Positions 5,466-26,126 of a stretch of 64,000 nt of DNA are shown one piece after another. Both the position numbers and the translations under genes were made by a program. Each line of letters begins with the position of its first letter. Positions within the stretch are counted from its first letter, which is position 1. This stretch comes from Aphelenchoides besseyi (taxonomy: Eukaryota; Nematoda; Chromadorea; Rhabditida; Aphelenchoididae). Location: the NCBI GenBank assembly GCA_024699855.1, contig JAMPIQ010000002.1, positions 11,656,001 through 11,720,000 of the forward strand, read 5' to 3'. The notes under the pieces are model-generated. The model searched no databases, had not been told where the DNA came from, and saw only the letters and a list, made by a program, of their open reading frames with translations.

Positions 5466-8400
5466 TTAGGTCTTTTTCTGAAACAAAAATCGTTTTTTAT
5501 TGATTAGAAATGATCGTACAAACCTTTGGCGCATCTTTTTTAGCGGCTTGTGAGGATTTTCGAGCGGCGTTGGAGTTGGTTTTACTTGTCGCATCACTTT
5601 TCTTTCCCGTTGGTTTGCTTGAACTGGTTGAGGCGGACGACGGTTTTTGTTTTGTAGCCATTGATGGTGCACTTGGAGCAATTACGCCGGTTAGTGAGGT
5701 CTTTCCCGAAGTCTGAGATGTTTGGCGGACGGGTGTGGGTTTGCGATTGGCTGTATCGCTAAACATCACTCCTTTCGGTCGAGCTTGTTGATCACCGACA
5801 GGTCCGTAAGCTCCAGTCGGTCCGGCCATTATACCCACCGCATTACCGGCCTTCAAAGAGCTTGGTGGTGTGCCTTGAGCACCCGTAGCAGGCATTGCAT
5901 TTGATGCAGTTAATGAGTTGCCAGTCATTTCTTCCAAGAAATTTGAAGGCACTAAACCACGCACTCCGTTCAGTTCACCAACGTAAAAACCGTCTTCGTC
6001 CATTTCTCCAAACACTGTGATAACATCGTCTAATCGGAAACTCAATTCAACCTATAGTTCGAAAATAGTTGAGCTTAGTGTGTAATCAACGAACCTGTTC
6101 AGCATCAACATTTGGACTTAGATGGCTTGTGTCGTAGTCATATTTAGCACGCATTCGTTTCGTTGGTAGAACATCCAATCTATTGAAACTGAAAAATTTA
6201 TGTTGCAAAACTTCGAAGAAAAGCAAAAATACCGTTCATCAACAAATTGTTGCGTATTTGTTTGGGCTTTTTGAAGTTGAGTTGAATAAGCAGCTGAAGG
6301 ATACTGTTGTTGTGACGGGTTTTGAGGTTGTTGTTGGGATTGCATTGGTTGGCTAGTTGATTGACTTTGTTGAGGTCCTCGAGTCGCTAGATTTGTCAGT
6401 TGCCCGGAAATATATTGTGGTTGTGATTGAACGGGTGTGCCGCCGATATTTTGTTGATTACCAGAAGATTGCAGTTGTTGAGAAGAAGATTGCTGTCCAG
6501 CTGTAGTTGAAGCTGTCAGATCATTAGTCCATTGATCTCTGGGTGCAACGGGCGCAATCGAACGATCATAATTTCGTGATGCATAATCTGCCAATGCAGT
6601 TCTCTGACCTGGAGCATAACGTTGTTGACCTTCGGTATAATCATAACGTTCTCCACTGCGAACCGTTGCTGCACCTTCCCTGATGTCACGTGTATCTCGA
6701 TGATCATTCGGATAGTCCCATCCTTGTTCTGGTCGTCGTGAATCTCTTCGATTTGCATAGTGTTCGCGGGATTGCGAACCACGCGGATCATAACTTGACG
6801 ATCGTTCGTATGAACCGCGATAATCACGAGATGGATAACGAGGCGCCAAAGCACCAGCACGAATCGATGAAGATGGAGCGTGCGAGTCAGCAAAATCGTA
6901 ATAACGACTGGAATTTGAGTTGTAGTAATTGGTTTCGCGTCGGCCCAAAGACGAGTAGCCATTGGACGATGGACCGGGAACATGATGAGGCGGTGGTCTA
7001 CGTTCAGCGTTGTCGTAACTTCGTGATTTTGTTGATCCCCAACGCATTCGACGAGCCGCTGAGTCAGCTATTGAACTGCCGGTTGGAGCATGATAGTCAG
7101 GTTCATTTGGCGGCAATCGACGAGTACCAGAGAACAAATCATCTTTAGCTATTTCAATGACCATATTCGATGGTACCAATCCGCGACGACGTCCAATAGC
7201 TCCGTGATAAAAACCGTCTTGATCAACATCACCGTAAACCTGAAATACGTATTCAATTGACACACAGTTTGTTTTATATTACTTTGATTAATTGGTGTTT
7301 AAAAAACGAGAGTTCCTCTTGTTGAGCATTTGGATTCGGTGACATGTGATGGTTGTAATCGTAAAGAGCGACAAACCAACGACAATTCTCCTCATCTGCA
7401 TAAATGGGCATTGGTCTAAGATCAGGTTCACTTCGTGTACCGAGAAATTCGTCAGAACGAACACGCGACAGTTTCGGCGCCATTTGAGACATACTCATCG
7501 TCCCACTGCCGCTTATTGTTCGTCGATTTCCCGGAAACACTCGTGCGGTAGAGGCTCGAGAAGGTAACGGTCGTCCGTAATGATCGTAAGCTGGAGCTGC
7601 TTCAAAACTATGTTGTTGTTGTTGTCGATGTTTCAGTAGATAGTTGTTCTCCATTTCCAGCACACTCGGCTTTTCGTCCGTTGTTCCGAGTTCTTTGTAC
7701 AATGTGCGCGGATGAAAAGTGTAATACTGATTGAGCGGTTGTTGTGTTTGTTTCCACTGAAATTTCGATTATTAATACGAAAACAAAGTTTGAATTACGT
7801 CGAGAACTGACGCATATTTTGGCAGCGGCGTTGCAGAGTTGTGTAGTAATGCACTTGTGCTAGAACGACCAAGAAATTTATGCGGATGTTGAGTTGCATG
7901 AACTTGATGAGCGCTATGAAGTGGATGTTGTCCAAAGAGTGACTCCGAAATTCGTCGATTGTTAGCTACTGACCATTGATTCGGATTGTCGCCGCGTTGC
8001 ATCGTCATGATGTTCGCTTGAGCTGGTTGGGCAGTGAGCATGTATGCAGTGGTGGGATCCGATGCGTTTAATTGTCCCGCCAGCGGGTTCACTCCAGTTT
8101 GTGTGAGATAAAGAGCTGGTTGATCGAAGGCATAGGCAGTGTTGAGTGGATTGGCAGTTTGTTGAGCTGTAGACTGCGGCAGAGTAGTTAAAAGACCGGG
8201 AGGTTGCATTACGTTTAACGGTGCGGAAATAGCGGGTATCTGACCAGCACTAAAATCAACGCCCGGCAAAGCACTTCCTAAAAATAAAAAAGTTTATAGA
8301 ACACTCCAAATGCACATCTCGAGTTCCCATATCAATACAAACGATTTGATTGGATAAAACCAAATTCTCACGATTGAGCATTCCGTTTGTTTCCAAACAG

Positions 8401-20528: not shown

Positions 20529-23500
20529 ATGGACGGTGCGTTTGATACGGAAATCGTACTGGGCGGCAGTACATTTCCACATCCGGCACCACTTGTTGAT
20601 GAGTACAATGAGCGTAAATCTGCACAGGTGATGTTAACAATATCTGCCAGGTATGATTGAAAACCGTACAGAAACGATAGTTACAATTTAGTGACATCAA
20701 AGACGTTGATCCGGACTCGGGAACCGATCCTTATTGTGTGGTGAGTGTTAGTGATGCTTCGATGGTTCGCCAAAGACATTGGGAAGAAATTGGACGAACA
20801 GAAACTCTTACGAATACGATTGAACCGGAATGGGCAACCAAAATCATTATCACTTATTACTTCGAAGAGCAACAACGATTGCAATTTGAAATTTTCGACA
20901 AAACCGGAATTCACAAGAAACGTGTGGGTAATGCGAGCATGTAAGTTCTTTGTATTAAATAGAGGATCGTTTAAAATTACGCTTATTTTGTTCAAAAAGT
21001 TACGTTTTCAAAAACAACTGAAACGTTTGCATTATAGAATTGTACACAGTCTACTTGTTTGTCTTCTTTTAGGTTGTTACATGAGATCGTTGGAGCGAAA
21101 TATAATCGATTAAGTAAGGACTTATTGTATGTTTGTAATCTCATTAACCAACAAAAGCTCGTTATGTTTAGGGAAGAAGGAAAACATCATGGTGTGATCA
21201 CCGTAAGTGCCGAGGAATTGAGCGAAGGACGTCAAGAGTCCGTGTATTTCGTTGTATCAGCTAGCGATTTGGATCGAAAAGATTTCTTGGGAAAATGCGA
21301 TCCATTTCTGAAGATTTTTCGGTACAACGAAGATCAAACGCTACAACTTGCCTATCGTACACGATATCATGCGCAGACGTACCAACCGCGCTGGAAGCCA
21401 TTCGAGATTCACATCAATCAGTTGTGTTACGGTGATAAGGATCGTGAATTTCTAATTGAATGCTATGATTGGGATGCCGATGGCGAGCACGATCTTGTTG
21501 GTGCGTGCAATACCACGGTTAATCGGCTGCTTTCGGGAGTCGACAAAACGTTGCCCGTAAGTCTGCGCACACTTAGATCGTATACAACTTGCTGTAGCTA
21601 ATTAACGAGAAAAAAGCTCGAAAGACGAAGAAATACGTGGATTCCGGAAAACTTCACTTTCACAAATGTTACTGTTGGATGGATTGGAGTTTTTTCGAGT
21701 TTATCAGCGGGGGGTAAGTTTTTGTAAATCACTTCGCTTATTTGATCCTTACTGTCCAGTTGACTGCTAGTCAATCCACAACTTTCGGCCTGCTTTCGAA
21801 TTTGGTCTATCATTGCAGAAAGATCGTTCCGTTTGATATTCGCAAATTTCGAGCCTTAAATTTAACAACAAATTTCCTCGCATATTTGCGTACTTACCCA
21901 TACGATAATCTTCTCGATCAGTACTCATTCGCGGTATGGGGTTCAGTAGCGGTGTCACGAATTCACGACCATGCACATTAGTTGCTGACGAAACATTCAA
22001 ACCCGATTTTGTAGTTGTTGGTTTGTGCGGGCCCTCAAATACGATCGGATTGCAAAAATGAGTTTATGTGAAACCATGAGAAGATTTTAAATCAAGAAAA
22101 TGAAATTACAATTGCATTGAATTAATGAAAAAATTGTGAGAAAAATAATGAGATTAATTGAAAGTTTTGGGAATTAAAAGAAATTGAGTTGAATGCTCGT
22201 GAGTAACTGAGCCAATAGAGAAAAATACAAAATCGACATTAAATGAGCAAAACGAGAAGTTGAATTGGAACGTTGAAATGAATTTGGACACGAATTAGAA
22301 ACCAACTGAAACCCAAACCGAGTAATTTTTACTTTGAAAACTTTTACCTCTGAGTTACTCGAGTTCGGTAATGAATTCGTTAGTGACCTTATCAAACCTA
22401 ACGAATTTGTGCCAAACAAGTTCTCCCGTGACCGGATGAGGACGCTGGCGTGCCCGCCATTGTACACGTTTTCCAGCGCACCGAGGACCTCGCCAACGAA
22501 AACCCGCGTCTTTGAATTTCTTTTCATATCGTTGCCCGTTTGTCAATCCATCAGACTTCATTGCCTCCTTTCTCGCAGCGGCTTTATCGTGATAAGCTTG
22601 AACTTCCGGCTCCACAGGCTTCGCGACGTATTCACCAGTGTCTTTTTCAAATCGAACAAACTTCCACCGTTGGACCTTTCCCGACTTTGGATCAGTTTCC
22701 TTTCGACCAATGTAGTAAATATTCTCTCCATCGATTACACCTCTTTGGTTGATAAAACCACTCTTGCGCAATTTTCGTTTTTGTTGTCTATTCGTAGAAA
22801 GTGCCGCTTCGTCTTCATCCGAGTCATCAACTTCTACCGCCGCGAATCGTCGGTATTCAGGTCCATCTTGTTTCGTTCCGCGTCTTTCGCTGCGTTAATT
22901 TCCATCCGATCGTGCACCGCGTCGCTAACAGGAATCTTAACACCATTTCCGGAAGCATCTCTTCGGAGATATTCGTGCCAACGCAATTGTCCCGATTTTG
23001 GATCCATTTCCTTTCGCACCCAAATTGCACGGGGTTTTCCATCAACAGTCACCCATCTGTTAATAAAACCGTCCAGTTGTTTTCGCCGTTTCTCGTCTAC
23101 ATCACTGCCTGTGTGTGGCAGGAGTTTCGTCTCGAATTGGATGTCAATCACTTCATCGTGTTTGTCTTTCAAATGTTCAAGCCAATGCGTCGAGTTAAAT
23201 GACTTCCAAACGCAAAGATGACAACTCCAAGCCCGCAACCAGTTCAATAAACTTCACTTCCAATTTGACTTATTCGACTAGGATGGACAACCACCGGAGA
23301 TTCCAACGCTTCCATCACGACTTTGAATACTTCATCGGCTTCTTCCCTCGTATATTCCAAATATCCCGGCAAATGTCTATATAAGTCCGACCTAGGATTA
23401 CCGGCCCTTCTCGAATAGCCATCGGTTGTAAAGATGCGGTTTTGATCGTGTAAGATGTATTCGATACGGAAACTCTTATACATCATCTCTCGCCAATGTC

Positions 23501-26126
23501 CATCGGTAAAGTTCGCGAGTTTGATCATCGATAACACATCGCGGTTTGACTTCAGATATACACCAGAATCGGATTCGCGAGCATAAAGGGGCCGTTTGTA
23601 TTCGTATGCACGCTTCTCAATGGGTCGAAAGGCAACTGTCCCATCATTGTAGACTGATTTGAACATCGCACGAATTCGATTATGACTCTTCAACTTCTTC
23701 GCCTCTTCCAATTGTTTCAAATTCACGATCAAATAGTTCGAGGATCCAAGAGTTTTCTGGACATACGTTGTAGGTCTTTTCTAAACATCAAATCAATGAT
23801 AAACTCGTACAAATTTTCTAACCTTTGGCATACAATATGATGCATGGAGAAAATTGAGCAAATCATCGTCCAATTGTTCTTCATCATCTTCCAATTCGAC
23901 ACCTTTAAAATCGTCAACGTTCTGTGCACCTTCGTCATCTTCATAATCAGACTCTTGATCATATTCCATATCATCATAATCGCTCCTACAAACATCTACG
24001 ATCATTCAACCCAACAACAATCAAACTCACGACTTTGGTTCGAACGCCATTGACGAACATGATTGTTCGTGTTCTCGGATGGGTGTCGAGTCCACGATTT
24101 TGATCCTATACTTCTATTAAACAATCAAAAATAATCGAATTCTTACATTTGCGGTTTATTCTCCTTCTCCTCTTCAGACTCGCTGTCAGATGAGTAAGTG
24201 ATCACCAATCTGTAACCCAACAACAATTACATACAATCACAATCTGAAACTCACGGCTTGACTCGTTTTGCAAACGGTGGGTCACCAAAATCGTCCCCAT
24301 CTTTCGGCGTTCGAATAGGATTCAACGGTTTTTTCGATCGTTTGCTCATTGACCTCGACTTTGGCTGTAATAATCAGATTATTGCGTTATCTCATTTACG
24401 TAATGGACTTAAAACGCGAACAACCACGTGTAATTGCGACGAAAGCAAAACCAACCGACAAACATCCTACAAACATTCGTAAACAACCGACCGACTGAAC
24501 GTTCGCCCTAAGACTCCAATCTGGCGAACAAAACAATCGACTGTTAGCGCGCTTTCAAAACACAATTTACTTCGTCGGTGATCGAATAGTAAGCACTAGT
24601 TTGCATTCGTTTTACCAATACGTCCACCATTCGTTGCAATCTATTGTGTTTTGTTGTTTGATATGAATTTCATTCTACTTTTCGATTAAATAAAAAGAAT
24701 ACGCAATTTGAAATACGAAAAAAACAACGTTCATTCCATAAACATAACAACTTAATCAACAGAAAAATACGAACAACAATCTCATCGAATCTTAAGTCTC
24801 CTCGTCGCTTTCATGTACGCTTGGTTCCGTCATTATATCCTGACTCAGTTTTTTTTATCACTCAAGAAATAAGTTCATAGAAATGAGAGTCGATGTGTAC
24901 ACGTGTTTATATTGGAAGGATTAAGAGAAGAATGACGTAGATGTCTGAGATGTTTAAGATGTAATTCGTCTAAAACCAAAAGAACGAGTATTTGCTGGTT
25001 GAAAACATTTAAATAATTGTGTTTATTTACAGCACCGAATTGGATTTTACAGTTGCTGTAAGTGAAGCAACGATTCAGTTGCTTATCGAACAAGTTTCGT
25101 TTAGATTGATTTCACAAAATCCAATTTACCAATGGACGAGAAGTCGTCTTTGCATCATTTGGATGAGTCAAAAGCCAATCAATACGAAATTGGGATTGCG
25201 GCTGTTGCTGATATCTGTCAACATTACAACTCTAGTAAGATATTTAAAGGATACGGTTTCGGAGCGCGTGTACCACCCGACACAAAAGTTCGTTATAACT
25301 TCCCATTGGTTAGTGATCGTCTGGTCAGAACAATGAAAGCAATAATTGAAGAATCTGGAAACGAACGATCCAAAATGCCGCGGCGTTCAAGGTCTATTGG
25401 AAGCGTATCTTATTGCACAATCACGAGTAGAACTTTCCGGACCGACAGATTTCGCTCCGCTTATACGATTTGTTGCTCGTCAAGCAGCTGCTACGCCTGA
25501 AGATGGATCCAAGTACAACGTACTTTTGATCCTAACAGACGGAGTTATTACTGATATCGAAGCAACAAAAGAAGAGATAATCAAAGCCTCGACTTTGCCG
25601 TTGTCTATCATCGTAGTGGGTGTTGGTTATGACTCATTCGACGAAATGAAAATCCTCGATTCCGATCATCAAATGTTATCCGTAACACGTCATGGAAAAC
25701 GTGAATATGCGAAAAGGGATATCGTTCAGGTTCGTTGATTACTATGAAAATCTACAGTTTATAATTGTAGTTTGTTCAATTACGCAAGTATCTACCACCA
25801 CATCGCGAGCTCAGTGATCACGACCTAGAGATAGCAAAAGCTAAGCTGGCGAAAGAAGTTCTCTACGAAGTTCCTGGTCAACTTACAAGTTATATGAAAT
25901 CGAAAGGAATTTATCCACGTGGGTGATCATTTATAGATTGAATTATGATCTTATTCTAGGTTCTCCCGCTTCACCGTTTGATTGGCAAGATCTACAAACT
26001 TCAGTTAGTCCAAATCAGAGCCTATCGGACAGTTTCCATGCGAGCAGTCAAAATTCTCCACGTTCGCCGAGACGTCTTTTGCCAGCGGAGCCATCGGAGC
26101 CTTTTTCCCAAATGCACATTTACTGA
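20529..26126 (+). CDS. Copine (two C2 domains plus copine-type vWA)
   Basis: Ca2+-dependent phospholipid-binding protein; in C. elegans, copines (gem-4, nra-1, cpna genes) act on ion channels, receptors and muscle attachment. Exons: 20529-20650, 20692-20940, 21073-21126, 21172-21556, 21598-21713, 25033-25057, 25105-25308, 25352-25729, 25771-25918 and 25960-26126, giving 615 residues. C2A has the Ca2+-loop signature DVDPDSGTDPYC; C2B has SASDLDRKDFLGKCDPF and YDWDADGEHDLVGA. The linker KKYVDSGKLHFHKC leads into the vWA domain with TVAIDFTKSN, GFGARVPPD and LLILTDGVITD, closing with RDIVQFVQLRKYLPP. A Ser/Pro-rich tail follows the usual copine end. Intron 5 (21714-25032) is 3.3 kb while the others are mostly short, and it holds a gene on the opposite strand. 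The family is certain; which paralogue it matches is not. Confidence 0.93.
21598..22033 (-). CDS. Possible short gene or last exons, antisense to the copine
   Basis: Two open blocks, 22033-21898 and 21854-21598, join in frame across a 43-base intron with a good GTAAGT donor. They encode a hydrophilic stretch including DRVLNPIPRM-like text around NVHGREFVTPLLNPIPRM and a possible helix DLSAMIDQIRKQAESCGL. The last part overlaps copine exon 5 on the other strand, so the true end may lie earlier. I cannot join it in frame to the nested gene upstream. It may be a separate small gene, 3' exons with a different splice pattern, or chance. Confidence 0.25.
22355..24349 (-). CDS. Unrecognised acidic/basic protein with a three-fold repeated module, nested antisense in the copine intron
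   Basis: I do not recognise this protein. Exons in minus-strand order: 24349-24255, 24209-24147, 24105-24031, 23985-23823, 23780-23253, 23202-22838 and 22787-22355, giving 573 residues with no signal peptide or membrane segment. The N-terminus has a basic, nuclear-signal-like start (MSKRSKKPLNP) and acidic runs (SSDSESEEEKE, DYDDMEYDQESDYEDDEG). The middle (23.78-23.25 kb) looks globular. The C-terminal third holds three related modules. Module 1 has DGFINRWV, then DPKSGQLRWHEYLRRD; module 2 has SGFINQRG, then DPKSGKVQRWKFVRFEK; module 3 has AGFRWRGP, then HPVTGELVWHKFVRFDK. The join 22838/22787 uses a 50-base intron. An alternative frame through that intron also reads like protein (DDSDEDEAALS). 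An acceptor (ATTACAG, read on the minus strand) lies about 15 bases upstream of the start codon. Confidence 0.7.

Follow-up and report, generated by a model that had tools for sequence, protein, structure and literature searches.

A candidate GIY-YIG-like core, a C2H2 finger and a variable tail in an Aphelenchoides besseyi orphan gene family with one member inside a copine intron

Introduction

What kind of gene occupies the antisense strand of a long copine intron in the plant-feeding nematode Aphelenchoides besseyi? The question is raised by a window of 64,000 nucleotides (contig JAMPIQ010000002.1 of assembly GCA_024699855.1, positions 11,656,001 to 11,720,000; coordinates below are those of the window unless a contig or locus is named), in which a multi-exon reading frame lies at 22355-24349 of the minus strand, antisense within a 3.3-kb copine intron. 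The best explanation, to which we give about an even chance, is that it is a member of an A. besseyi orphan family that combines a strongly diverged, GIY-YIG-type, DNA-binding pseudo-nuclease with a C2H2 finger and a fast-changing tail. The fold, the catalytic inactivity, DNA binding in the nucleus and any role in genome maintenance or in the control of mobile DNA are inferences. A first-pass annotation of the sequence had described the gene structure and its C-terminal repeats and is partly supported overall; neither the core and its C2H2 finger nor the wider family was noticed there.

The gene family

The window gene belongs to a family in A. besseyi whose members share a core-finger-tail order, differ in the number of their tail modules and have kept the core under old purifying selection. 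The core, of about 165 amino acids, is encoded by exon 5 (23274..23780, minus strand; 3′ end placed by homology), and this exon matches 16 places in the genome, itself included. Identity to the window core is 55% in four young, near-identical copies, 26-30% at eight places and 34-49% in three shorter fragments. Contig C2, which makes up 17.8 of 47.4 Mb, carries 12 of the 16 core places, including all four young copies.

The 15 paralogue places were surveyed in 14 ten-kb regions. A C2H2 pattern (C-x2-C-x12-H-x3-5-H) follows the core in the window, where it reads CHLCVWKSFNSTHWLEHLKDKH (23158..23223, minus strand), and at 12 of the 15 paralogue places; it occurs in one of 2000 shuffled segments. 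The three loci without it (L047, L050 and L052) all carry stops. Pfam zf-C2H2 reached only E 0.18 in protein P0001, below its cut-off. At each of seven places that were joined, a 40-43-nt intron parts core and finger exon. Two of these seven joins (L045b and L046) then run out of the finger frame or into a stop, and a third (L051) is truncated by a stop further upstream.

A profile search of 5.8 billion proteins returned five relatives at E<=1, all labelled A. besseyi, and the product of the window gene is not among them. None came from outside this species, although A. fujianensis proteins (P0008) were included; the search reaches proteins of about 200-637 amino acids that share short words, and absence elsewhere is thus not proven. 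In one scan of viral contigs, the core alignment recovered no relative.

Between the window core and the four young copies, the proportion of differing synonymous sites (pS) is 0.74-0.77 and that of nonsynonymous sites (pN) 0.32-0.33, and the protein has therefore been retained for a long time under purifying selection. The four young copies are recent and show little constraint: their six pairs have synonymous divergences (dS) of 0.02-0.04 and ratios of nonsynonymous to synonymous divergence (dN/dS) of 0.44-1.06.

Fold and catalytic residues of the core

A first AlphaFold2 (AF2) model, built for P0003 with 7 sequences, gave a predicted local distance difference test score (pLDDT) of 46 and left the core unresolved. 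AF2 of the window core reached a predicted template modelling score (pTM) of 0.70. The VIA structure comparison of this core matched Slx1, and the BFVD structure list was rich in GIY-YIG and homing-type endonucleases. Structure prediction and two of three structure comparisons thus weakly suggest for the core a diverged nuclease fold of the GIY-YIG type, spaced much as in LEM-3/ANKLE1.

Several points weigh against the proposed explanation. The third comparison, Foldseek against the PDB, has no GIY-YIG protein among the 39 matches listed, and neither a sequence test of the relation nor any Foldseek match is significant. With hhalign, profile-profile comparison to PF22945, the LEM-3/ANKLE1 family, gave P=0.09 with at least 5 of 60 decoys scoring higher, and in global mode the score fell below the decoys. 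The second tyrosine of the GIY-YIG motif was not found, an asparagine being aligned at the YIG site in 12/12 cores, and in 5/12, namely the window core and its four young paralogues, a tyrosine stands one place before that asparagine. At the junction of core and finger, the window copy also lacks the two splice dinucleotides present in its paralogues. No core out of eight passed the cut-off of the PF22945 model, and the family loci are not among the 9 PF22945 matches in the genome. The core may instead have an unrelated fold that resembles GIY-YIG by chance. This is improbable, though a serious contender, because the two structure comparisons that favoured GIY-YIG proteins were blind to the idea and the motifs are collinear with LEM-3-like spacing.

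Should the fold be of the GIY-YIG type, its active site would be incomplete. The GIY tyrosine is kept in all 12 aligned cores and the catalytic glutamate in 11, including the window (L046 is the exception). A lysine occupies the K519 site, in the K..RI strand, in six of the 12, and the metal-binding asparagine, 14 residues after the glutamate site, is present in two, L043 and L046. An ANKLE1 study (PMC10287932) gives a 3,500-fold activity loss for Y486F and the loss of all detectable activity for Y453F, E551A or N565D. Given these effects, the replacement of the second tyrosine by asparagine and the rarely kept asparagine site, we infer from sequence that the core is a nuclease-dead, DNA-binding pseudo-nuclease. 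Such a domain, its activity most likely lost, could bind DNA that is perhaps branched or nicked, and the single C2H2 zinc finger would aim it at DNA.

The C-terminal modules

The tail of the window gene contains three related modules of about 55 amino acids on the minus strand: module 1 at 22927..23091, module 2 at 22613..22780 and module 3 at 22361..22525, followed by a TAA stop codon at 22355-22357. Local alignment scores are 80 (modules 1 and 2), 72 (2 and 3) and 55 (1 and 3), none of which was equalled in 1000 shuffles, and the threefold repeat of the first-pass annotation is borne out. Comparisons of the window modules (pS 0.60-0.93, pN 0.45-0.57) carry little information on selection. 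One module is found in L042, two in L041 and three each in L039 and L040. The tails of L043, L044, L045b and L049 consist of short basic repeats instead. The modules, of which the window subfamily has one to three where others have basic repeats, could provide further contacts.

AF2 of P0003 folds the modules as a helix and four strands (pLDDT about 62-85) with weak Tudor-like structure matches. The modules differ from Tudor/Agenet folds by an extra N-terminal helix and have no sequence relation to them, and the resemblance is below the level of trust. Searches of Pfam, PHROGs and PDB sequences with core and modules gave nothing solid. DUF629 appeared in the window open reading frame (ORF) at 22836-23253 with E 0.0075, below its cut-off. 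Two PHROGs families without assigned function, 22500 (7.7e-5, over 16 residues) and 25048 (1.5e-4, over 32 residues), were hit by the P0003 tail, and a third of this kind, phrog_17714, by the L043 repeat tail at 1.7e-9.

State of the window copy

The core-finger donor is GT in 8/8 readable paralogues (nine stretches were displayed) and the acceptor AG, where the window has ATAAGT and GCGG. No GT/GC-AG join of 30-140 nt in the window retains both the core end and the whole zinc finger; one join of 83 nt retains the finger at the cost of about ten core residues. Module 2 is not in the frame of module 1, whereas in paralogues L039-L042 the modules share a single frame with no intron between them. 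The window gene may therefore be a decaying relic, its junction splice sites lost and its tail frame broken, from which at most the N-terminus and core are made. Stops or frame shifts in L047, L050 and L052, and at the finger exon in L045b and L046, add to this case. Relic status nevertheless appears unlikely, about as much so as a chance resemblance of fold. Long open frames persist (178 amino acids for the core, 139 for finger and module 1, 179 for modules 2-3) even though the core is close to saturation at synonymous sites. Between modules 1 and 2, five GT-AG joins of 77-137 nt, sharing one donor, would keep the frame, so that a split between exons 6 and 7 is possible. Moreover, the copine itself switches frame near 25380: within 25105-25735 the Copine profile runs from 1 to 57 in one frame and from 55 to 176 in the next. 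This is probably an assembly indel, and single-base assembly errors are therefore likely in the region of the nested gene. From its sequence, the window copy may be re-spliced, decaying or affected by assembly errors.

N-terminal exons and host gene

Exons 1-5 (24349-23274, minus strand) read as a single open frame once four GT-AG introns, each of 41-45 nt, are removed. This part of the seven-exon structure first proposed stands, and the last two exons are doubtful because the splice dinucleotides are gone. Exon 1 (24255..24349) encodes a basic start resembling a nuclear signal (MSKRSKK..KRVKP), exon 2 (24147..24209) an acidic run (SDSESEEEKE) and exon 4 (23823..23985) a very acidic stretch; exon 3 lies at 24031..24105. 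The signal-like start and acidic runs noted earlier are thus present in the spliced translation. N-termini were inspected in the window and in P0001-P0005; where known, they have the basic and acidic character that one would expect in a nuclear protein.

The 5′ flank and first codons (24328..24584, minus strand) are 96% identical to G000:C1:4570227-4570483 (minus strand). Beside it, on the other strand, C1:4570720-4571033 matches the region of exons 1-3 at 71%. The region is a rearranged fragment of the window gene on another contig.

The host copine gene, on the plus strand, brackets the interval with a C2 domain before it (E=1.8e-12) and Copine domain matches after it (E=7.5e-14 and 5.4e-39). 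The intron (21714..25032, plus strand) begins with GTAAGT and ends with TTTACAG. Its measured length of 3319 nt agrees with the single long intron that had been reported to hold a gene on the other strand.

Spread of the family

The four young copies have a common left boundary in three flanking contexts but do not end alike on the right, and at two places parts of the downstream segment occur by themselves. Helitron-related ORFs adjoin three copies (L039:2-3730, L044:7444-9998 and L049:2844-4067), identified in L039 by a Rep domain (Pfam E=2.6e-59) and in the other two by DNA similarity, which in L049 is confined to the N-terminal part. Young Helitrons are reported from A. besseyi (PMC11118728). 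These neighbours, the left boundary common to the four near-identical copies and a layout that parallels I-TevI, as outlined in PMC1564403, speak for a mobile, homing-like or transposon-borne gene that can still spread. Such a gene is distinctly less probable than decay of the window copy. The left end occurs at four places only, with no fifth in the genome, and the right ends vary; no inverted repeats of at least 18 nt surround L039, L041 or L042; key catalytic residues are replaced; introns are retained; and the window copy is the only known intronic one (the others were not examined for intron location).

We read the young copies as segmental duplications, perhaps aided by nearby mobile DNA, a reading that leaves their common left boundary unexplained. 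The family would have expanded as short segments were duplicated to dispersed sites, with one old member in the copine intron. A high-copy transposon was rejected, since the left end is found at so few places. Direct repeats of about 375 bp, 99% identical, flank L041 (L041:2811-3183 and 6433-6808) and are absent in L042; they were taken as a local duplication.

Two further observations concern mobile DNA. In L039 and L049, the stretch that precedes Rep looks like a putative ULP1-type protease, and ORFs at L046:611-1584, some 3 kb away from a member of the family, resemble a putative ISXO2/Merlin-type DDE transposase.

Comparison with known systems

If the proposed explanation holds, a nematode has made a diverged GIY-YIG fold into a DNA- or chromatin-binding family whose tail changes fast. 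For this nuclease fold such a fate is unusual, and it is described in none of the family libraries searched; in the paper library searched, no entry pairs GIY-YIG with Aphelenchoides. It would also illustrate how an orphan gene, nested antisense within an intron of another gene, is able to persist.

The LEM-3/ANKLE1 family shares with the core the predicted order of strands and helices and a similar distance from the GIY tyrosine to the YIG site (30 residues in L043, 33 in ANKLE1), along with the glutamate and K..RI lysine in the cores that keep them. It differs in its YIG tyrosine, in its histidine site, which is not histidine here, and in its metal-binding asparagine. The A. besseyi family carries a zinc finger and modules in place of ankyrin and LEM domains, for which Pfam gave no match in P0001 or in four scanned window ORFs. 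In other animals a single LEM-3 gene is known. A. besseyi has several separate LEM-3 GIY-YIG loci, L053-L061 (C1:6058688, C3:8500250-8500775, C3:8706085, C1:8540920-8541364 and C1:11099080).

Slx1 ends in a RING finger at its C-terminus, as stated in PMC1564403, where the present family has a C2H2 finger. The same source outlines I-TevI as a GIY-YIG domain, a zinc finger and DNA-binding elements, and the GIY-YIG-like domain, finger and tail of the present family stand in the same order. Unlike I-TevI-type homing endonucleases, the family has no NUMOD match, consists of nuclear spliced genes and is predicted to be inactive. It is a long shot, slightly longer than that of a mobile gene in general, that the family is the nuclear equivalent, in an animal, of the modular homing endonucleases, GIY-YIG-derived, guided by a zinc finger, equipped with interchangeable tails and spreading in one nematode genome. 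The old copy antisense in the copine intron would then have settled in a safe place for a selfish gene.
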